Positions 36,148 through 46,249 of a stretch of DNA of 64,000 nt are shown piece by piece. The position numbers and the translations under genes are program-made. The notes below the pieces were generated by a model. It searched no databases, had not been told where the DNA came from, and saw only the letters and a list, made by a program, of their open reading frames with translations. The first letter of the stretch is position 1. Every line of letters begins with the position of its first letter. The DNA is from Umboniibacter marinipuniceus (lineage in GTDB: Bacteria > Pseudomonadota > Gammaproteobacteria > Pseudomonadales > DSM-25080), in the NCBI RefSeq assembly GCF_003688415.1, contig NZ_REFJ01000005.1, positions 241,890-305,889 of the forward strand. The letters are read 5' to 3'.

Positions 36148-37887
36148 ATGTTAATTAGATTAGCCCTAGTAACCGCTCTATTTTGTCTTTCATCGCTAAC
36201 GGTTGCCAATCAGCCAGTGGCCCACATCTTTGATTATCAGCGATTCTGTGCACAACATAAGAATCGCCCCTCGCAGGATCAATGGTGGCGCTATTTGGTG
36301 GCGCTATCTGGCCGAATTGATGGTGATATCCGAGTATATCGAAATCACCTTGAGGGTAATGGCGATCCGTTAGTGATGGCGATTAGCCAGAATGCTCAAT
36401 ACTACGATGCCTTCCGTAGACTGATGGGAATGGACGGCGTAGACGGAAGAGGCCTAAGGCACAATCTGTTGGTTAATATGAACCGAGGCTCGAATGGTGA
36501 ACCCTTCGAATGTGGAGACGGTGAAGTCTTCGATGCCATGAGTGTTCGCCAAGGTAATGAACTTTCCTTTGACGCCTTTAGTAAAACAACCATGGCCTTG
36601 GAAGAAGTGGTTGGTCATGAGGCTTATCATGCATTTATTGGTTACAATTCCGCTTTAGAATACGAGTTTCAGTCTGGCGCACTCAATGAGGCGCTCGCCG
36701 ATGCCTTTGGCGTTGTTTTCCGTCAATGGCTAGAATCCGGGCGGCCCGATAATCCCGCTGATATTCAATCACGTTCAAATGCGCTTTGGCAGTTGCGAGA
36801 TGTGGGACAGCCGCTTCGCGATATGATCAGCCCAAATAATCACGATCAGCCTGATCACATGAATCAGTATATTAAGCTGCCCAATACGGCGGACGGGGAT
36901 TGGGGGGGCGTTCATTACAACTCAGGCATCATCAACCACGCTTTTTTTCTATTGGCGGAGGGTGGTCAACATCGACGTCTTGGCTCAGGGCCAACGGTCT
37001 CCGGGATTGGTCCCTACAAAGCCTTAACTATCTGGCATAGTGGCGCCATTTTGATGCACCCGTACAGCGATTTCCGCGATGCGCGCGAGAAGTTTCAACG
37101 TGCCGCGGTGGAGTTATTCGGTCATGGGAGCGGTGAAGTTCAATCGCTGGTGAACGCCTTGGACGCCGTTGGTATTGCCTTTGTGCCACTTCCACAGGCC
37201 CCGGTAACAACTCCGGGCCCAACAGAGCCAGAAGAAACTATACCTCCTGTTAATGATCCTGTTACGGTACCCACGCCGCCCGAGACAAGCGCGGATCCCG
37301 TGGTCATCGATACCAACCCTAACCCAGGGCCAGTCGTAACCAATCCCGCGCCGACGCCCGGGCCGGTGATGGCAAACCCTGAGCCCGAGCCCACTGAGGG
37401 AACCGAAGCTAAGCGTTGGTGGCTGATAGGGCTGTTACTGGTCGCCGGTGGCGCCCTGCTATGGTTAAGTCGAAGGCAGCCGTTTGCCGAAACAGCTAGC
37501 ACAGTAGCCAGTCCAGCGTGGTCTTCGGTACAACAGGCGTCCAGAAAAGCGGATTCAGATAACGCCAGCGCAGGTACCAGTAAGGACTTTAAAATCCACA
37601 TCGATGGGGCAAAGCTGTACTTGGACCCAGCGCTCTTGCGAACAAAGGATGGTCAAGTTTTTGGACGGTCGGCCAATTTTTGCCACGTGGTACTGGCGAA
37701 CGCGGCAATATCAAGGCGACATCTTCGTGTTTGTTTGGTTGACAAGGCACTTTGGGTGACCGATCTGAATAGCCAGGCGGGGGTGATGGTGAATGGCCAG
37801 TCGATCCCGCCGATGCAGCCAGTCCGATGGGAAATTGGTGACACTCTGAGTGTTGCTAACCGGGTTAAATTGGAGCGTAAATCATGA
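36148..37887 (+). CDS. Thermolysin-like (M4) metalloprotease with TM helix and cytoplasmic FHA domain
   Basis: The 579-residue protein has a signal peptide (1-20) and an M4 catalytic region. Zinc motif HEAYH (157-161), third ligand E181 in GALNEALADAFG, and H256 in GGVHYNSGIINHAF (counterpart of thermolysin His231) are all present, so it should be active. A Pro/Thr-rich linker (350-420) leads to a TM helix (about 424-441) and then a C-terminal FHA domain (about 481-575: FGRS, SRRH, NSQAGVMVNG). An extracytoplasmic protease joined to a cytoplasmic phosphothreonine reader is unusual. It overlaps the next FHA gene by four bases. Confidence 0.85.
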   Translation: MLIRLALVTALFCLSSLTVANQPVAHIFDYQRFCAQHKNRPSQDQWWRYLVALSGRIDGDIRVYRNHLEGNGDPLVMAISQNAQYYDAFRRLMGMDGVDGRGLRHNLLVNMNRGSNGEPFECGDGEVFDAMSVRQGNELSFDAFSKTTMALEEVVGHEAYHAFIGYNSALEYEFQSGALNEALADAFGVVFRQWLESGRPDNPADIQSRSNALWQLRDVGQPLRDMISPNNHDQPDHMNQYIKLPNTADGDWGGVHYNSGIINHAFFLLAEGGQHRRLGSGPTVSGIGPYKALTIWHSGAILMHPYSDFRDAREKFQRAAVELFGHGSGEVQSLVNALDAVGIAFVPLPQAPVTTPGPTEPEETIPPVNDPVTVPTPPETSADPVVIDTNPNPGPVVTNPAPTPGPVMANPEPEPTEGTEAKRWWLIGLLLVAGGALLWLSRRQPFAETASTVASPAWSSVQQASRKADSDNASAGTSKDFKIHIDGAKLYLDPALLRTKDGQVFGRSANFCHVVLANAAISRRHLRVCLVDKALWVTDLNSQAGVMVNGQSIPPMQPVRWEIGDTLSVANRVKLERKS

Positions 37888-38153
37888 GCAGCTTCACCAC
37901 CTATTTCTTCGGCAGAGATCAGAGCAACTCCATTGTATTGGATGATCCAAGTATCTCTCGCTTTCACTGTGAGTTGACCGTTAATGGCGACGACTGTCTG
38001 CTAGTTGATGCGAACTCGACCCACGGCTGTTTTGTGGAGCGCAATGGTGACTGGGAAAGCGTGAAGAACAGCCAGCTTAAATTGACGGATAAGGTTAAAA
38101 TTGGCCGCTTGAGTGGCCTGTTGAAGGATTTTATAAAGGGAGAAAAGGCGTGA
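37884..38153 (+). CDS. Small single-domain FHA protein
   Basis: The 89-residue protein is almost only an FHA domain. The core residues are present: GRD (10-12), SISRFH (23-28) and the NSTHG loop (44-48, where most have NSxNG). FHA domains bind phosphothreonine peptides. With no other domain, it could act as an adaptor between phosphorylated partners of the operon. It starts inside the end of the protease gene (ATGA), and its stop overlaps the next start (GTGA). Confidence 0.8.
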   Translation: MSSFTTYFFGRDQSNSIVLDDPSISRFHCELTVNGDDCLLVDANSTHGCFVERNGDWESVKNSQLKLTDKVKIGRLSGLLKDFIKGEKA

Positions 38154-38959
38154 CCAATATTTTGGAGATCAAAGAGAGTCACTTGAGGGTAACCGTGGCG
38201 TTAATCTCTGTGATATTGGCAGCGGTGTGGATTTTAGTCATTGATTTGGCGTTGAATACACCTGCCGATGGAATCAGAATTGTGGATGTGCTGATTGATA
38301 GGGCGAATGAGCTTTATCCGTTCACCATTCAGAATTTGATGTGGATTTTCTTTTTCTTTGGCCTTGGCGAATTATGGATTCGTAACCAGCGAGCCAATAT
38401 TGAGGCGCAGCAGCTGGGGCTTAGGCTGCTCCCGGAAGATGAAGAAACACTATTGCGCGGCAAAGACCTCGGAAGTATCGTGCTGTCGATTCGCGGAGCC
38501 GGTTCGCAGCGTCTCTATTATCTTCAGGAATTGATAATGCGCACTATTCAACAATTCCGACTCAATGACTCGGTTGCACAGGCGGATAGCCTGTTGAACA
38601 CTTCGTTGGACCTCATTCACGCCGAACTCGATATTAAATACAATATGTTGCGCTACATCAGTTGGTTGCTACCAACGCTGGGCTTCATTGGTACCGTAGT
38701 GGGTATTTCCCTTGCGCTGGGTGAGGCGGGCAACATGCCTGAGGTGACTGATGGTGACGCAATTAAAGCGTGGATGGGCCTGCTCACGGCCAAGCTAGGC
38801 ATTGCCTTTAACACAACATTAGTGGCGCTGCTGCAGTCCGCCGTACTAGTGTTTCTTATTCATATTGTGCAGGCGAAAGAAGAAGAGGGCGTCAATCGTA
38901 TTGGTCGCTACTGTCTACACAATCTCATTAATCGTTTGTACGAATCGCAAGAGAGGTAA
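38150..38959 (+). CDS. MotA/TolQ/ExbB-like membrane protein
   Basis: The 269-residue protein has four predicted membrane helices (about 13-35, 58-77, 168-190 and 216-240). A cytoplasmic part lies between the second and third. The third helix contains WLLPTLGFIGTVVGISLAL, the conserved block of MotA/TolQ/ExbB proton-channel proteins, and the fourth has LGIAFNTTLVALLQSAVLVFL. These proteins work with a MotB/TolR/ExbD partner having an Asp-bearing helix; the vWA protein at 41886 has such an N terminus. The start is GTG with AAAAGG before it. Confidence 0.8.
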   Translation: MTNILEIKESHLRVTVALISVILAAVWILVIDLALNTPADGIRIVDVLIDRANELYPFTIQNLMWIFFFFGLGELWIRNQRANIEAQQLGLRLLPEDEETLLRGKDLGSIVLSIRGAGSQRLYYLQELIMRTIQQFRLNDSVAQADSLLNTSLDLIHAELDIKYNMLRYISWLLPTLGFIGTVVGISLALGEAGNMPEVTDGDAIKAWMGLLTAKLGIAFNTTLVALLQSAVLVFLIHIVQAKEEEGVNRIGRYCLHNLINRLYESQER

Positions 38960-38964
38960 TTGTT

Positions 38965-39690
38965 ATGCCGGCAAAAATTGGCCCCGATGGGAAGCCCATC
39001 GTTGTAGATACTGTTCCGTTTAAAGCAGATTATCAAGATGATGATGCCACTGCTCCCTATGACCCTAACGCTGATCGACGTACGCCAAGCAACTTTGATG
39101 AAGATGAGGCGACCGCACCGTTTTCGACTCAGACAGCAGGGGCCACATCGCCGATGGCCGACCCTACACGGGCGCTTGATATTGAGGAAGTCGAAGTCAA
39201 TATTCGCGGCGCGAAACAAGCACCAGTCAGTGCGGTAGTTGAAGAAGATGACGAGGCTACTCAGGTCTACCGAGCGCCTCGACCGTCGTCATCGACTCAC
39301 GCTGCTGAAGCGGGCGCACCAACAGAAGCCGAACAGACTTCCGTAGCGATGCAGGATCCTCCAGTGGGTTGGTTAGTGGTCACTGACGGACCAGGTAAGG
39401 GCGAGGTCGTTACCATCGGCTACGGACAAAATTCCGTCGGGCGTTCGGGCGCACGCATCAATTTGAATTTTGGTGATAGTGAAATCTCTCGCGAGTCACA
39501 CATTACGGTCATTTATGATCCTAACGCTCGAGCCTTTTATGTGGGGCCAGGCACCGGGAAGTCGCTGGGTTACCTAAACGGTTCACCTATCTTGATGCCG
39601 GTAGCCATGAATAATTCTGATGAGCTGAAGCTAGGAGCTACTGCCCTTCGCTTTGTTGCACTTTGTGGCGAAGGCTTTGGTTGGGAATAG
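38965..39690 (+). CDS. FHA-domain protein with repeated acidic Ala-Thr motifs
   Basis: The 241-residue soluble protein has an N-terminal flexible half and a C-terminal FHA domain (about 134-236: VGRSGARINL, EISRESH, then a YLNGSP loop). The first half carries three similar motifs, DDDATAPYDP, DEDEATAPFS and DDEATQVYRAP, with threonines at 29, 50 and 99. The third resembles the ETTxVFR phosphorylation site of GarA-type FHA proteins. I infer that the kinase of this operon phosphorylates these threonines and that the FHA domain may then bind them in cis or on partners. It ends directly before the phosphatase gene. Confidence 0.8.
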   Translation: MPAKIGPDGKPIVVDTVPFKADYQDDDATAPYDPNADRRTPSNFDEDEATAPFSTQTAGATSPMADPTRALDIEEVEVNIRGAKQAPVSAVVEEDDEATQVYRAPRPSSSTHAAEAGAPTEAEQTSVAMQDPPVGWLVVTDGPGKGEVVTIGYGQNSVGRSGARINLNFGDSEISRESHITVIYDPNARAFYVGPGTGKSLGYLNGSPILMPVAMNNSDELKLGATALRFVALCGEGFGWE

Positions 39691-40458
39691 ATGTTGGAAT
39701 TTGATGTAGGCGTCAGCCAGTGGCAGGGGCGAAGAGCCTATCAGCAAGATAGCGTGACTGCGCAATACCTCGCTAATGACCGGTTGTTGGCCGTAGTCTG
39801 TGATGGTATGGGTGGAACCGTTGGCGGTGAAGTTGCTGCGTCAGCGGCCCTCGATGCAATTGTTAGTCGCTTCGACCCACATGCTGATGATTTATCAGCG
39901 CAGTGGTTACAGCTTGCAGGTGCAGCGAATAACGCCCTGGCTAAAGCCATCAAGGCCGATGAGGCACTGGCATCAATGGGAACGACTTTGGTGTCACTGT
40001 TTATTGATAAACAGGGGTTAAGGTGGTTGAGCGTTGGCGACTCGCCGTTGTGGCTGTTTCGCGATGGTGAGCTCCAGCGTCTTAATATTGATGAGTCTTA
40101 CGGCGGCTTTTTAGATCGCGAGGCCGCGGCGGGACATATCAGTTGGGAGGAAGCACGGTCGAACACCAAGCGACACCAGCTTATGAATGTCTTACAGGGG
40201 AAGAAGTCGTTAGTCGTTAATGATATCGCCGATGAGGCGGTGGTACTGCAGAGTAATGATGTGCTCCTGCTTGCGTCAGATGGTATTCAGACGCTTAGCG
40301 ATGGCCATATTGCTCATGTGATGCGGGAGCACCTTGGTGAATCAGCAAATAGTATTACGGAGCAGTTAATGCGTGCCGTTCATAGGGAAAACCACCCGAA
40401 ACAGGACAACGTGTCTATCGCGTTGATCAAAGTAGAGCAAGGGAGTGAGTCAGAATGA
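39691..40458 (+). CDS. PP2C-type serine/threonine phosphatase (soluble)
   Basis: The 255-residue cytoplasmic phosphatase has the full PPM set: D20 in AYQQD, CDGMGG (D38), GTTLVS, SVGDSPLWLF, LLLASDGI and KQDNVSIAL, so it should bind two metal ions and be active. It would reverse phosphorylation by the operon's kinase. The ATG follows the preceding stop without a gap (TAGATG), and its own end overlaps the next start (ATGA). Confidence 0.9.
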   Translation: MLEFDVGVSQWQGRRAYQQDSVTAQYLANDRLLAVVCDGMGGTVGGEVAASAALDAIVSRFDPHADDLSAQWLQLAGAANNALAKAIKADEALASMGTTLVSLFIDKQGLRWLSVGDSPLWLFRDGELQRLNIDESYGGFLDREAAAGHISWEEARSNTKRHQLMNVLQGKKSLVVNDIADEAVVLQSNDVLLLASDGIQTLSDGHIAHVMREHLGESANSITEQLMRAVHRENHPKQDNVSIALIKVEQGSESE

Positions 40459-41882
40459 AATCCATCATAGCTACCGCCATTTTAGCTGCCTTAGTCAGTG
40501 CGCCGACGGTTGCCCAGACCGCCTTAGAGGTGTTGTCAAATAAGCGAGGTGACACGATTGCTGAGGGGCTCGCCATTCCAGTTACTCAACAGGTGGTCGT
40601 GACCCGCCGCAGCTTGCTTGATAATGGCGATACCGTTGCTGTGGTTGACCCCGTTAGTGGTGCCAGACTTCAGGCGGACGTGTTGGCCTCTGATCGTGAA
40701 ACCGGGTTTAGCATTTTGTCGGTAAACGGCGCGAACTTTCAACCTTTGACATTCAGTGCTAGCGAGCTGCGAGCAGGGGAACGCATTGCGTTGTTAACCG
40801 CTGCTGAGCAGCGAAGTGGATTCGTTTTGGCTCAGCTTGATGGTGGTATCTTTCAGCATGATGTGAGCTATGCAGTCAACGAAGTGGGCGCCATGGTGTT
40901 GAATCGCTGTGGCGAATTAGCTGGCTGGAATGTCGATCAGTTTTCGGGCGTATTCGCCTCTGAGCTGAGCGGCTCTGAGGTTCCCGTAGATGCGAAGGGC
41001 CTTAGTGCGTTGGTCACACTGTTGCAGAATAATCAGGTCAAAATATCAATCGCTGCCAATGCGTGCCCTAGTCTAGAAGAAGAGGCTGATGCCGCTCGCC
41101 AAGCCGCTCAAGAGGAGCTTGAGCGCATTGAGTCGGAGCTAGCGGAACAGCAAGCTGAGCTTGAGGCACAGCGACAGGCGGCGGAGGAAGCTGCTGCCCA
41201 AGCGGAGGCCGAGCGCGAACAGTCAGAAGCCGCGGCGGCCGCTGCCCGCGACGCTGAGGCGGAACTCGCCGCTCGCGAAGCCGAACTGGAGGCGCAGCGT
41301 CAGGAAGCTGAGGCGGCACAAGCCGCTGCAGCCGCTGAACAAGAAGCGGAGCTCGCGGCCGCCGCCGCAGCGCTCGAAGCAGAGCAGCAAGCCCGAGAAG
41401 AAGCGATGGCGCGTGCCGAGCAGGAAGCTTCAAGAAAACAGCAGTTAACGCTTATTGGCGCACTTGCCGGTGTGATTGGCCTAGTGGTGCTATTACTGGT
41501 AGTGATTCGCTCCCGCAAGCGTCAAACAGCGTTAGATGAAGCCAAGGCGCGGTTTAACGATGTGCTGCTAAGCGGCCATGACGGCGGTGGCAACCCTTAT
41601 CGGGTTCGTATTGATGGAGGCGCGCTGCGGCAGGCGGAAAATGGCTTAGTGATAGGTAAGAATGCCTCGCAAGCGCAGGTGGTGATTGCCAATCCTCAGG
41701 TATCACGCACTCATGCTCGTATCTGGGTGGAAGATAACGGCTTGAAGTTGACTGACCTTGGCAGCTCGAACGGAACGCAGGTCAATGATGTCCCGCTTCA
41801 AGTTGGGCAGGTGGTGGCGTTAACGGCTGGAGATAAGTTGGCGCTAGGTGGTGTCTTCCTTAACGTGGAACTACTGGATTGA
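40455..41882 (+). CDS. Degenerate trypsin-like domain, coiled coil, TM helix and FHA domain
   Basis: The 475-residue protein has a signal peptide (1-20), then a domain of about 170 residues with the pattern of trypsin-like (DegP-type) proteases. The expected catalytic sites are lost: VVVTRRSLL where a catalytic His is expected, ETGFSILSV for the Asp block and EVGAMVLNRCGELAGW for the Gly-Asn-Ser-Gly block. A long Ala/Glu/Gln coiled coil (about 207-328), a TM helix (331-352) and a cytoplasmic FHA domain (about 382-475: GKNA in place of GR, SRTH, GSSNG) follow. I infer a non-catalytic extracytoplasmic sensor or scaffold that connects to phosphothreonine signalling inside the cell. Confidence 0.75.
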   Translation: MKSIIATAILAALVSAPTVAQTALEVLSNKRGDTIAEGLAIPVTQQVVVTRRSLLDNGDTVAVVDPVSGARLQADVLASDRETGFSILSVNGANFQPLTFSASELRAGERIALLTAAEQRSGFVLAQLDGGIFQHDVSYAVNEVGAMVLNRCGELAGWNVDQFSGVFASELSGSEVPVDAKGLSALVTLLQNNQVKISIAANACPSLEEEADAARQAAQEELERIESELAEQQAELEAQRQAAEEAAAQAEAEREQSEAAAAAARDAEAELAAREAELEAQRQEAEAAQAAAAAEQEAELAAAAAALEAEQQAREEAMARAEQEASRKQQLTLIGALAGVIGLVVLLLVVIRSRKRQTALDEAKARFNDVLLSGHDGGGNPYRVRIDGGALRQAENGLVIGKNASQAQVVIANPQVSRTHARIWVEDNGLKLTDLGSSNGTQVNDVPLQVGQVVALTAGDKLALGGVFLNVELLD

Positions 41883-41885
41883 GCT

Positions 41886-42734
41886 ATGAAGCGTAAAAAG
41901 CGGGAAGTCAGTGCGTTTAATATGTCGGCGGTGGATCTCTTCGCCTCGGCAATGGGAGCGTTTATTCTCCTTGCTGTGATTGCTCTACCGTTCTTCCCTA
42001 AAACCTCGGAAACGCCGCCGGCGCCGGTTTGTCCTGAACCATCGCCGGTGCTGCCGGTCCCCGCGGCCTGTCCCGATCCAGTGGTTCAAACCTGCCCGGT
42101 ATGTCCACCGGTTCCAGAAGAGGCGTTCGTACTCAAGGACATTGATCTTGTGATTGTCCTGGATGTTACTGGCAGTATGGATGAGTCCATTGAGGGGTTG
42201 AAGAATACCACTTCGGACTTAGTCGCGCTGTTAGCGCGTTTGGCTCCCACCTTTTCAGTGGGTATTGTCACTTTTGGTGATTATGGTTTTGATCAACCTA
42301 CTCAAGTATTTAATCTCCGTGAAATGTCCAGTGAGCAAGATATTGAGGCGCTGAATCGTTTTGTTGGTCAGGTTCGAGAAGGCTGGGGTATTGGCGGTGG
42401 AGACTATCTCTACGAAGGCGAGGCGCTATCTGCGGGACTGGAGATAGCGGTCGCGATGCCCTTTAGACCTGAAGCCAAAGAGCGGAGAATTGTTGTCTTT
42501 ACGGATGATGTGGCGACCTACCAGAGTCGTGCTGAAGGTCTTGTTCGCCAGTTTGCGTCAGGGTCGTCGGGCGACGTGAGCCAGACTGTGTCGGTGGTTC
42601 TTACGGACCCAAAGAACAATCCTGATGCGGCGAGAGTAATGGAGCAGTTGGCTACCACTGGGCAGGGCTTCTATTCCTCGTCTTCGGGCTCCTTTATTGG
42701 CAAGCTGTTACTTGCTTTAATTGACGGAAGTTGA
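41886..42734 (+). CDS. von Willebrand A domain protein with MotB/ExbD-like N-terminal anchor
   Basis: The 282-residue protein starts with a short basic stretch and one TM helix (about 16-37). The Asp-bearing entry SAVDLFASAMGAF is like the N terminus of MotB/TolR/ExbD-type proteins. A Cys/Pro-rich linker (43-78, five Cys) follows, then a vWA domain in the periplasm with the metal-site motif DVTGS (93-97), TFGDYG and VFTDDVATY. It probably pairs with the MotA/TolQ-like protein at 38150 (inference). The linker cysteines could form disulfides. Confidence 0.78.
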   Translation: MKRKKREVSAFNMSAVDLFASAMGAFILLAVIALPFFPKTSETPPAPVCPEPSPVLPVPAACPDPVVQTCPVCPPVPEEAFVLKDIDLVIVLDVTGSMDESIEGLKNTTSDLVALLARLAPTFSVGIVTFGDYGFDQPTQVFNLREMSSEQDIEALNRFVGQVREGWGIGGGDYLYEGEALSAGLEIAVAMPFRPEAKERRIVVFTDDVATYQSRAEGLVRQFASGSSGDVSQTVSVVLTDPKNNPDAARVMEQLATTGQGFYSSSSGSFIGKLLLALIDGS

Positions 42735-42737
42735 TTG

Positions 42738-43937
42738 ATGACTACTTACCATGCGCAACGTCAGGGAGATCGGCCTTACCAGGAAGATTGCTTCACGACC
42801 ATCCAGACGGACCAGTATCAGCTGCTAGTAGTAGCCGATGGACTTGGAGGTCACGACGCGGGTGATGTGGCGGCAAAACTGATTGTCGAGCTCGTGACTG
42901 CAGCGTCCACCGAACTCCCCGAGTTGAGCCCGCTGGAGGCAAAAATTAAACTGCGGGCTTGGTTTGAACCAATTGTTAGAAGCTTTCAAGCTGATTTAGC
43001 GAGTCAGGAACAGGCTACTGATGCCCACACAACGGTGGCAATTGCTATTATTCGCGCGGATCAGCTTTATACCCTTACGGTAGGGGACTCGCGAGTTTAT
43101 GTCTGTGGCGAGCATAGCCTCTGGCGAAGTCGAGATCATTCCGTGGTTCAGATGCTGGTTGATGACGGAGAGATTAGTGAAGCGGAGATGGCTGCCCACC
43201 CTGAACAGGGTAAGTTGTATCAGAGTATTGGTCCTAACAAGACCGTAAAACCCAGAGTTTCGCATAGGGAGCTAACTGCCACGGATGTGGTGCTCGTCGC
43301 GAGCGATGGTTTTTGGGAAGGTGTCAGCGATGAAGAGTTACAGGGCTTCGCAATTGATCCATCGCAACAACGCCTTGATTGCTTGGTTGATCTAGCCTGT
43401 GAACGGCGTGCGCCGAAGGCAGATAATACCACCGTAATTTCCTTTGAAAATAATACGACAACGAGACCTCTAATGACAGATGAAGTGAACTCAACCCCCA
43501 CAGCGAGCGCCAAACAGCCAGATAACCCTAAGCGTGCGGATTTTTCCAGCGGAGCAATCAACAGGCGCCGAGATCGCTTTATTGCTTTGGCCCTCGTTCT
43601 GTTGATTGTGCTGTTGGTAGTCTGGGGAGGAAGCGGCGACGATAGCGCTGATGTTGCCAGTGCTGAGCAAGCGGATGAGGCGGCGCAGACTAGCTGTATG
43701 CTTGAAGCGGTATATGAGGCTGAGGACGAGGGTATTCGAATAGTACTAAGCTCTATAGATGACGGCACTGAACAGATCGTCACATTGCCAATTCGCCCAG
43801 GCAAATACCGTGTGAGGTTAGAAGATCGTCATGGTGAGTGTCAAAATCTGCGAGACGAACAGGGTGAAACTGAATTGAAGAAGAAATTTGAGCGCCAGCT
43901 ATTGCGTTCATCCACAGTATCAATGGAAGTCCTATGA
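42738..43937 (+). CDS. Membrane-anchored PP2C-type phosphatase
   Basis: The 399-residue protein has an N-terminal PPM phosphatase domain (about 1-238). Motifs include RPYQED, VADGLGGHDAG, TVGDSRVYV, LVASDGFWEGVSDEE and KADNTTVIS. A TM helix follows (about 281-297), then about 100 extracytoplasmic residues with two cysteines and no recognised fold. I took the ATG at 42738; the TTG just before it directly follows the vWA stop. It is the second phosphatase of the operon, probably acting at the membrane on the same phosphoproteins. Its last codons overlap the kinase start. Confidence 0.88.
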   Translation: MTTYHAQRQGDRPYQEDCFTTIQTDQYQLLVVADGLGGHDAGDVAAKLIVELVTAASTELPELSPLEAKIKLRAWFEPIVRSFQADLASQEQATDAHTTVAIAIIRADQLYTLTVGDSRVYVCGEHSLWRSRDHSVVQMLVDDGEISEAEMAAHPEQGKLYQSIGPNKTVKPRVSHRELTATDVVLVASDGFWEGVSDEELQGFAIDPSQQRLDCLVDLACERRAPKADNTTVISFENNTTTRPLMTDEVNSTPTASAKQPDNPKRADFSSGAINRRRDRFIALALVLLIVLLVVWGGSGDDSADVASAEQADEAAQTSCMLEAVYEAEDEGIRIVLSSIDDGTEQIVTLPIRPGKYRVRLEDRHGECQNLRDEQGETELKKKFERQLLRSSTVSMEVL

Positions 43938-46249
43938 GTAGAGCACAGCAATCAACCCACCTGCCTCTTGGTACTCGATTAGGCGAATATGAGATTCAAG
44001 CGGTTCTTGGCCAAGGTGGCTTTGGCATTACCTACAAGGCGTGGGATAGCACTTTGGCATGCTACGTAGCACTTAAGGAATATTTTCCTAAGCATTTAGC
44101 TAATCGGAATACTGACAGTGTTTCCATTCGGCCAGCAAGTCGTGAAGATGAATCCTCGTATCAGAAGGGCTTAACGAGCTTTGTTGAAGAGGCTAGGGTG
44201 TTGGCGCAGTTTCAACATCCTGGAGTCGTACCGGTAAAACGTCTGGTCAAAGCCAACCAAACCGCTTATATGGTGATGGGGTTTGTTGAGGGCGAAACAC
44301 TCACAGAGTATATGAAGAAGAGTGGTGGTAAGGTGGCAGCGTCGCAACTTATTGCCTGGACAGATCAGTTACTCTCGGCGCTCGATAAGGTACATCAGGC
44401 TGGCCTATTACACCGCGATATTAAACCCGGCAATGTCTACATTGGCTCCGATGGCAACGCGATGTTATTGGACTTCGGTGCGGCACGACGCGTTGCTGCA
44501 GAGGCGTCGCAATCTATCACCGGTGTGATCTCAGCAGGCTATTCGCCAATTGAACAATATTCAGAGAGTACCAAGAATCAGGGTCCTTGGACGGATATTT
44601 ATAGCCTTTCCGCAACACTCTATCGCTGTATAACTGGTGTTAAACCTATTGAAGCCACGGCTCGCCGCGATGAAATGGATGATGGTGATCCTGATCCGGT
44701 TGCCGCGTTAAATCCATCGAGTTATCCCGATTTTCCCGCGGGTTTTATTCTAGCAGTGTGGCAGGGCATGGCGGTTATTCGTAAGCATCGGATTCGCGAT
44801 GTGAGTGCCTATCGCGAAGTGATGAATGCCTCACTTAATTCGCCATCGCCGCAGAAACCAATAGCACCCGTGACGCCCCCCCCTCAGCCGGCTCGTCCAA
44901 GCGGCCCGTCAACCTCAGGACCCCAGTCTAAGGTGGGCTCTGGCCCCCAATCACAGGGTTCTACTCATTCATCCGCTAAGGTGCCAATAAGTAGTGGTGG
45001 GCGCGTGGTTCAGATCATTCTGGCCGTGGTGGCGGTTGCAGTGGTAGCCATCGTAATCATTAACCCCTTCGCCAAGAAAGAGGATCCAATATTAGATCAT
45101 GGTGGCGGTAGCGAGGAAGTTCAACTTCATTCAGTTTCGGTTAATGTTAAGCCAAGCGCTGCCGTCGATCGCATTTTGATTAATGGTTCAAGTGTCGCTA
45201 ATGGTGCCACGACGAGCCTTGCCGAGGGAGAGCATCACGTTGAAATTCGCGGTGCGAGTGGCTATTCCAATGTAGATGAGCGCATTTTCGTTGACCGAAA
45301 TAATCGCCAGTTCGAGTTTAGTTTAACTCAGGACCTCGTTCCCTTGACGCTTACACTAACGCCCTCTAACGCACGAGTCATTCTACCGGATCTGCCAGCA
45401 AACGTGACCTATCGTCCAGGCGTTCAACTTCCCCGCGGCACCCATCGAGTGCGCGTTATCGCCAGCGGTTATCAGCGATACGAGGGAAGTATTGACCTGA
45501 ACCAGGGGTCAAACTGGCAGATTACCCTCGAGCGAGCAACGCCGATTGCACAAATCAATGCGCAGATGGTGGCGATACCTGCCGGGCGCTTTAATATGGG
45601 TGGGGATGTATACACCGATGAGAAGCCAGTGCACCGAGTTAATGTCCCCGCTTTTGAACTGCAGAAGACCGAAGTTACTTGGGAGCAATACCGGGAATGT
45701 GTCAATGCCGGGGGCTGCACCGCGCCGGCGAATTCATCATCGTTTGCCGATGATGAGCCGGTTCGCAGCGTGTCTTGGGATGACGCGCAGCGTTTTATCA
45801 GTTGGCTAAACCGTGAAACGGGATCTTCGTATAGGCTGCCTTCCGAATCGGAATGGGAGTACGCGGCAAGAGCTGGCTCAGGGGCGCGATACAGTTCCGG
45901 AAACACCCTTTACTGTGATGACGCTCGCTATGGGCAGGTTGAAGATGGTGCCTGTTATAATGGCGGCAGTGGTCCCGTGGAAGTAGGAAGCTACCGAGCT
46001 AATAATTTCGGTTTGTATGATATGGCGGGTAACGTCAACGAATGGGTAGAAGATTGTTTCTACAACGATTATAACGGCGCCCCCAATGATGGCTCAGCAT
46101 GGGTTCGCAAAGCTGACTGTAGCGTTCGTTCTATGCGCGGCGGCGGTTGGGCTGGTTCGGTAGAGCAAGTGGCCGCTCCGTATCGTAATAGTGATCAACG
46201 CGATGCAACGTTTACCGATGTAGGTTTTCGCTTAGCAAGAAGTCGGTAG
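43934..46249 (+). CDS. Transmembrane Ser/Thr kinase with PEGA and SUMF1 (FGE-sulfatase) domains
   Basis: The 771-residue protein has a cytoplasmic Hanks-type kinase (about 18-290). Motifs are GQGGFG (26-31), catalytic Lys48 in ALKEYF, HRDIKPGN (160-167) and DFG (180-182), so it looks active. A Pro/Ser-rich juxtamembrane part and a TM helix (358-378) follow. Outside are two PEGA-like repeats (about 395-535) and a SUMF1 / formylglycine-generating-type domain (about 540-771: MVAIPAGRFNMGG, RLPSESEWEYAARAG, GLYDMAGNVNEWVED, RGGGW). In kinases this domain usually serves as a ligand-binding module. It is the last operon gene and the only kinase. Confidence 0.9.
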   Translation: MSRAQQSTHLPLGTRLGEYEIQAVLGQGGFGITYKAWDSTLACYVALKEYFPKHLANRNTDSVSIRPASREDESSYQKGLTSFVEEARVLAQFQHPGVVPVKRLVKANQTAYMVMGFVEGETLTEYMKKSGGKVAASQLIAWTDQLLSALDKVHQAGLLHRDIKPGNVYIGSDGNAMLLDFGAARRVAAEASQSITGVISAGYSPIEQYSESTKNQGPWTDIYSLSATLYRCITGVKPIEATARRDEMDDGDPDPVAALNPSSYPDFPAGFILAVWQGMAVIRKHRIRDVSAYREVMNASLNSPSPQKPIAPVTPPPQPARPSGPSTSGPQSKVGSGPQSQGSTHSSAKVPISSGGRVVQIILAVVAVAVVAIVIINPFAKKEDPILDHGGGSEEVQLHSVSVNVKPSAAVDRILINGSSVANGATTSLAEGEHHVEIRGASGYSNVDERIFVDRNNRQFEFSLTQDLVPLTLTLTPSNARVILPDLPANVTYRPGVQLPRGTHRVRVIASGYQRYEGSIDLNQGSNWQITLERATPIAQINAQMVAIPAGRFNMGGDVYTDEKPVHRVNVPAFELQKTEVTWEQYRECVNAGGCTAPANSSSFADDEPVRSVSWDDAQRFISWLNRETGSSYRLPSESEWEYAARAGSGARYSSGNTLYCDDARYGQVEDGACYNGGSGPVEVGSYRANNFGLYDMAGNVNEWVEDCFYNDYNGAPNDGSAWVRKADCSVRSMRGGGWAGSVEQVAAPYRNSDQRDATFTDVGFRLARSR

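Follow-up and report, generated by a model that had tools for sequence, protein, structure and literature searches.

The open reading frame at 38965..39690 (+ strand) encodes a 241-aa FHA protein that we consider fairly likely to act as a phosphorylatable adaptor of a kinase-phosphatase-FHA module. It lies in a 64,000-nucleotide stretch of DNA from Umboniibacter marinipuniceus, analysed here at its full length and referred to as the window. Direct evidence for the adaptor reading comes from the motifs in the N-terminal tail, their conservation, the identity of the FHA domain by profile and the gene linkage; from the sequence we infer phosphorylation, the kinase responsible, the reader and the effect.

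The FHA protein and its operon

The protein, as defined by its ORF and translation, consists of a low-complexity tail (residues 1-133) and an FHA domain (residues 134-241, 39364..39687, + strand) delimited in an alignment of 37 family members. A first-pass annotation of this DNA had given the frame, its strand and tail motifs at T29 (DDDATAPYDP), T50 (DEDEATAPFS) and T99 (DDEATQVYRAP), all of which are as claimed, but its count of three motifs is too low. There are four or more, as T16 (VVDTVPFK), which was overlooked, shares its T-x-[PV]-[YF] core with the other motif threonines. All on the + strand, motif 1 is VVDTVPFK (T16, 39001..39024), motif 2 DDDATAPYD (T29, 39037..39063), motif 3 EDEATAPFS (T50, 39100..39126) and motif 4, which is GarA-like, EDDEATQVYRAP (T99, 39244..39279). 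Because T16 also matches, the pattern [DE].{0,3}T.[PV][FY] is found four times in the FHA protein. Among the 51 remaining non-overlapping window ORFs of at least 100 aa, two have it, with a single occurrence each. For the pattern T.[VILP][FYLIVM], the tail contains five sites (T16, T29, T50, T61 and T99) versus 0.52 expected (p 0.0004, from shuffles of that tail). One further tail threonine that is unchanged in the genus, T68 (39166-39168, ADPTRALDIEEV), has Ala at +2, although +3 is Leu, and so falls outside the motif definition. The tail is probably disordered, as had been proposed, with charge-hydropathy composition as its sole support, the AlphaFold2 models being too poor to judge.

The gene belongs to a same-strand run that starts with a small protein having a thermolysin-propeptide match under the cut-off, ahead of an M4 peptidase-like protein with a C-terminal FHA domain (36148..37887, +; Pfam Peptidase_M4_C 2e-35, FHA 7e-13). 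There follow a small FHA protein of 89 aa (37884..38153, +; Pfam FHA E 1.7e-15 at G000:C5:279791-279994, NCBIfam matches under cut-off), the gene for which shares a few bases with each neighbour, a MotA/TolQ/ExbB-like membrane protein (38150..38959, +; Pfam MotA_ExbB 2e-8) and the FHA protein studied here. Directly downstream of it is a PP2C phosphatase (39691..40458, +; Pfam PP2C_2 8.1e-13), and then a protein with a C-terminal FHA domain and a coiled-coil-like middle (40455..41882, +; Pfam FHA 1.6e-15, weak TolA and SMC matches), a von Willebrand A protein (41886..42734, +; Pfam VWA 1.9e-9), a second PP2C phosphatase (42735..43937, +; Pfam PP2C_2 5.2e-17) and a Ser/Thr kinase with PEGA and FGE-sulfatase domains (43934..46249, +; Pfam Pkinase 1.3e-31, PEGA, FGE-sulfatase). 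By eye, the kinase shows HRDIKPGN and DFG and, between the kinase and PEGA domains, a hydrophobic stretch. The four FHA domains that had been attributed to the operon are all present, three by Pfam (36148-37887, 37884-38153 and 40455-41882) and that of 38965-39690 by profile. Searched against PADLOC, the FHA protein is unmatched at E 0.01, and the matches of the kinase were taken as general kinase models.

Linkage to a PP2C gene is seen in nearly all family loci. Among those with at least 400 bases of downstream sequence, 33/35 have a PP2C gene (DGMGG-type motif) no more than 600 bases downstream of the FHA gene, the exceptions being L006 (PP2C 1.6 kb on) and L058 (none in 2.9 kb, the next ORF encoding an AMP-binding enzyme). 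The kinase pattern is present in 11/37 loci, many of which are just 3 kb long; both PP2C and kinase calls across loci are short sequence patterns. The kinase has a BLAST match in L059, and all five annotated plasmid loci examined have an annotated kinase. A kinase does not always lie nearby, however, as a search by kinase pattern plus a Pfam scan of the eight larger ORFs recognised none in L053, L054 and L056 (14-16 kb each). An ExbB-like BLAST relative occurs in 9/17 loci, in seven of which a small FHA gene lies just upstream of it. On Ruegeria and Leisingera plasmids (L081-L083, L085), kinase, FHA and PP2C genes are found near dynamin-family genes (pairs), and some of these loci have substrate-binding-domain proteins or a zeta-toxin-family gene nearby.

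Tail threonines in the genus and across the family

A search of relatives gave matches in 4/56 genomes, namely the own genome, two further genomes of its genus and one from a different family. Alignment around T29, T50 and T99, which the first-pass annotation had put forward as a check, supports it in part: these threonines, together with T16 and T68, are unchanged in all three gene-holding genomes of the genus despite codon drift, each of the five codons differing in at least one of the three genomes (T16, ACT/ACC/ACG; T29, ACT/ACT/ACG; T50, ACC/ACC/ACT; T99, ACT/ACA/ACA). Unchanged tail residues in the genus comprise 5/12 Thr versus 1/8 Ser. T16 is furthermore unchanged in 5/5 rows of alignment A2, which holds the window protein and others, including one member of another family of the order and one Vicinamibacteraceae MAG. 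As a family-wide Thr, T16 was rejected, many of the 37 members beginning differently and without such a Thr. For the flanks (-3 to +4) of the four motif threonines, 22/32 positions are unchanged in the three genus genomes versus 38/99 in the remaining tail (p 0.0025). For T29, T50 and T99 alone, the corresponding 14/24 is not significant against the whole remaining tail (46/107, p 0.13), and compares with 26/87 within residues 23-133 (p 0.011).

Members of the family were collected from several searches. An alignment search matched 7/390 genomes of the order at E up to 1e-3; in the class, 23/369 genomes matched at E up to 1e-3, ten of them strongly (E below 1e-25, own genome included), and in the phylum, 16/398 at E up to 1e-8, twelve of them strongly (E below 1e-24, own genome included). 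Genome contigs, scanned once, added one locus, a plasmid collection gave 19 records, of which six were used and 13 left out, and a search of phages gave no match. Named relatives sit on plasmids of Ruegeria, Leisingera, Azospirillum and Rhizobium. Motif counts are for 37 proteins, or 29 after members at least 60% identical were collapsed to one; they leave out 13 class genomes whose best E lay between 1.2e-8 and 6.6e-4, three additional, weaker matches in retained genomes, four phylum genomes (E 3.9e-10 to 9.9e-9) and the truncated second copy of G001 (L005, L061). Start codons were picked by eye for 13 phylum members, L052, L058 and L084, and the annotated start of L080 was used though its frame is open further upstream, so the tail lengths of these members are uncertain. 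In L053, L054, L056 and L059 the tail starts with a segment, CP.G.H.YD...CP.C, that looks zinc-ribbon-like by eye, and L058 (L058:2904-4406) has a 361-aa tail with three near-identical DQQ[EK]TA[IV]F repeats and DDETVLF.

Across the 37 tails, the context T.[VILP][FYLIVM] is occupied by 70/347 Thr versus 14/348 for the same context around Ser, and the 70 sites compare with a mean of 16.7 and a maximum of 34 in 5000 shuffles of the tails. At least one site is found in 31/37 tails, at least two in 20/37 and at least three in 11/37 (13.3, 2.9 and 0.5 expected), and the pattern is absent from 6/37. Threonines at the boundary near the FHA domain (TDPVVGW) match the pattern but represent the domain edge, and the excess persisted when the last 12 residues were cut; with this cut, members at least 60% identical collapsed and the genus removed, 38/237 Thr versus 9/250 Ser remain (p 2e-6). 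The Thr/Ser tests assume independence of the members, an assumption that does not hold for related ones. Once the last 12 residues are removed, the stricter T.[VIL][FYLIVM] is absent from 14/37 tails, L053 and L054 being among these solely through the cut.

Because T.[VILP][FYLIVM] was picked after viewing the tails, an outside consensus was added as a second rule. PknA-dependent sites in Mycobacterium tuberculosis are reported to have an acid at -1 and at -3 to -6, Pro at -1/+2, Leu/Val at +3 and Lys/Arg at +4, and for PknB the study gives no significant motif (PMC7164672). Applied literally with at least three features, this M. tuberculosis consensus is matched by 32/347 Thr versus 8/348 Ser (p 5.7e-5), and by 28/315 versus 8/315 with the genus removed (p 4e-4). 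When +3 was widened by us to L/V/I/F/Y/M, the counts are 52/347 Thr (14.9 expected) versus 12/348 Ser, and 39/315 versus 12/315 without the genus; most of the signal of this widened rule comes from the hydrophobic +3, with no Thr-over-Ser enrichment of basic +4 and with Pro enriched only when the genus is included. The window motifs have Phe/Tyr at +3, versus Leu/Val in the PknA consensus.

The motifs had also been described as acidic, which holds for the window protein and is not kept family-wide. Acidity as a family-wide feature was rejected because 10/37 members, six from the phylum search and four from Ruegeria/Leisingera plasmids, carry a basic [KR]T[RT][LIVF][LI]G[FHY] motif.

The FHA domain and its likeness to GarA and OdhI

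Identification of the FHA domain is by profile. Pfam gives no FHA match in the 241-aa protein at E 0.01, a single-sequence search against solved structures has GarA as its best match at E 0.15, and the NCBIfam FhaB model matches residues 95-229 under the model cut-off (E 2.4e-4). A profile built from 18 members of the family, among them the window protein, has GarA (1.7e-8) and OdhI (1.2e-6) as its closest among the structure matches listed, and by this profile the domain is of the GarA/OdhI type. The OdhI family model NF041660 leaves the window FHA protein unmatched at E 0.01, and the small FHA protein of the operon matches it far under the cut-off (32.7 bits versus 200). AlphaFold2 gave mean pLDDT values of 39.5 for the whole protein and 32.7 for the FHA part, each alignment holding one relative only; the models are too poor, so the fold and phosphothreonine binding are inferred.

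We take Arg, Ser and Asn to be phosphothreonine pocket residues of the FHA domain. In the 37-member alignment, the pocket Arg is kept in 36/37, Ser in 32/37, His in 30/37 and Asn in 30/37. The window genus has R160, S175 and H179, with Ser200 where 30/37 members carry Asn and Gly where 32/37 carry Val or Thr, substitutions that may weaken phosphopeptide binding. The pocket Ser is replaced by Ala in 5/37 members. Three of these five (L006, L053 and L054) retain the motif even so, which means that something other than the protein's own FHA domain may act as reader. The FHA Ser-Arg is lost in L055 and L057, which have no GarA-like motif and perhaps represent a phosphate-independent form. The pockets of the other operon FHA domains are also non-canonical by eye, with GK for GR in one and no N-G-T in two.

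T99 had been likened to the GarA/OdhI site, and at the sequence level the likeness stands: EATQVYRA compares with ETTSVFRA of GarA, the FHA profile is closest to GarA/OdhI and the spacing from Thr to FHA domain is similar. The T99 region of the window protein reads EEDDEATQVYRAP, and the GarA peptide is SDEVTVETTSVFRADFL (PMC8546545). The GarA/OdhI site has two Thr, whereas EATQVYR of the window protein has one and is otherwise alike; member L054 has DETTQILR. Further GarA-like motifs occur in L050 (ETKTQIYR), L053 (EATQILR) and L056 (DEATRVLR), and another member outside the genus has DKTKVFK. T99 lies 38 residues before the first FHA strand, and in 13/23 members that retain a T.[VIL][FYLIVM] site after the cut, the FHA-proximal site is 30-42 residues before it (median 35). 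For GarA itself, the interval between T22 and residue 58 in chain 2kfu is presumably 36, if chain numbering equals residue numbering. The 13 members comprise three of the genus, eight of the basic group and two others; because three are of one genus and eight of one related group, the GarA-like spacing amounts to few independent cases.

The window protein thus resembles GarA (Rv1827) and OdhI, which bind 2-oxoglutarate dehydrogenase or glutamate enzymes, in the type of FHA domain, the motif in an N-terminal tail and the spacing of the motif to the FHA domain. It differs from them in having four tail motifs rather than one ETT site, in its location in an operon with kinase and phosphatases, in the replacement of the FHA Asn by Ser, and in its proteobacterial host, to which the plasmid relatives also point. 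GarA has been called unique to Actinobacteria (PMC12321487).

Alternative readings and a proposed mechanism

Several other roles may be considered for the tail and its motifs. Instead of a self-inhibited switch, the phosphorylated tail could be a multivalent scaffold that recruits in trans the M4-FHA, small FHA and coiled-coil FHA proteins, a possibility that we consider less likely. It would suit the presence of four FHA proteins in one operon, the four or more tail motifs and the retention of the motif in three of the five members without pocket Ser, but the GarA-like distance to the own FHA domain in 13/23 members, for all that most of them are the genus and one related group, points the other way, as does the departure of the other operon FHA domains from the canonical pocket by eye. 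In addition, the examined stretches of four annotated rhodobacterial plasmid loci carry just one annotated FHA gene each, and three of the four keep the motif, L081 having a shifted form. Head-to-tail assembly, in which a tail, once phosphorylated, would dock onto the FHA domain of a second molecule to form oligomers, is rather improbable in our estimate. Eukaryotic TIFA forms oligomers by head-to-tail assembly, and several tail sites with one FHA domain per chain are what such assembly needs, but the sequence has nothing to separate this arrangement from folding back. Similarly improbable is the use of the motifs, unphosphorylated, as conserved acidic-aromatic docking peptides for a partner such as the ExbB-like protein or the phosphatase. 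Conservation is by itself no proof of phosphorylation, and acidity with an aromatic +3 would fit docking peptides; the Thr-over-Ser bias in the same context and the phosphatase linkage are, however, unexpected for plain docking peptides, and charge varies among members while the Thr stays.

Comparison with known systems also raises the question of type VI secretion, in which kinase, PP2C and FHA protein are encoded together, as here, in the PpkA-PppA-Fha pathway (PpkA/PppA/Fha1), and in which, in Pseudomonas aeruginosa, a phosphorylated Thr is located on the T6SS FHA protein itself (PMC5995506). Two other operon FHA proteins match the T6SS model TIGR03354, far under the cut-off (43 and 21.5 bits versus 120), but the window FHA protein is unmatched by this model at E 0.01 and the sheath gene PF05943 is absent from the own genome (99.42% complete), E. 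coli being positive among the controls. Membership as the Fha component of a type VI system was rejected for want of the sheath gene, and we regard it as extremely improbable. Type VII secretion variants, like the operon here, group a kinase, a PPM phosphatase and an FHA protein of its own gene into a single cluster, and regulation by Thr phosphorylation has been proposed for them; they are Gram-positive systems with WXG100 proteins and FtsK-like ATPases (PMC11217815), and neither of these turns up for the operon genes among the listed matches. The kinase-kinase-phosphatase (KKP) module likewise combines PP2C, kinases and an FHA domain, but its FHA domain is fused to a kinase (PMC11341870), whereas that of the window is on a separate adaptor with a motif-rich tail.

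For the preferred adaptor reading, the following mechanism is proposed. The kinase 43934-46249, which is probably membrane-anchored, would phosphorylate several tail threonines, T99 and T16 being the most likely targets, followed by T29 and T50. The PP2C phosphatase 39691-40458, the likely eraser, would strip the phosphates from the tail, and an FHA domain would read phosphothreonine with a hydrophobic residue at +3. T99, given its position before the first FHA strand, would be placed to fold back, as in GarA/OdhI, onto the protein's own FHA domain, and folding back is favoured for T99 because of this spacing and its GarA likeness. Because the genus lacks the pocket Asn and the motif is kept in L006, L053 and L054, there is room for recruitment in trans or head-to-tail assembly. 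The N-terminal motif copies would either raise avidity or serve the other operon FHA proteins.

Among the papers listed for FHA/PP2C modules, GarA/OdhI and the TerY-P triad, none describes such an adaptor, which is weak evidence. A broader proposal, which we put forward as speculative, is that the family represents a GarA-like phospho-tail switch outside Actinobacteria, a separate adaptor family locked to PP2C. In some lineages the site would have been multiplied (four copies here, repeats in L058), and an on/off switch would have become a graded or multivalent scaffold for swappable partners such as the ExbB-like channel, peptidases and dynamins. If true, this would extend the GarA/OdhI phospho-tail/FHA switch beyond Actinobacteria, to a family of adaptors whose phosphatase partner is fixed. 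Four defined threonines, one kinase and two phosphatases constitute a directly testable set in vitro, and the protein would be a candidate for dose-dependent signalling by multi-site phosphorylation in bacteria.
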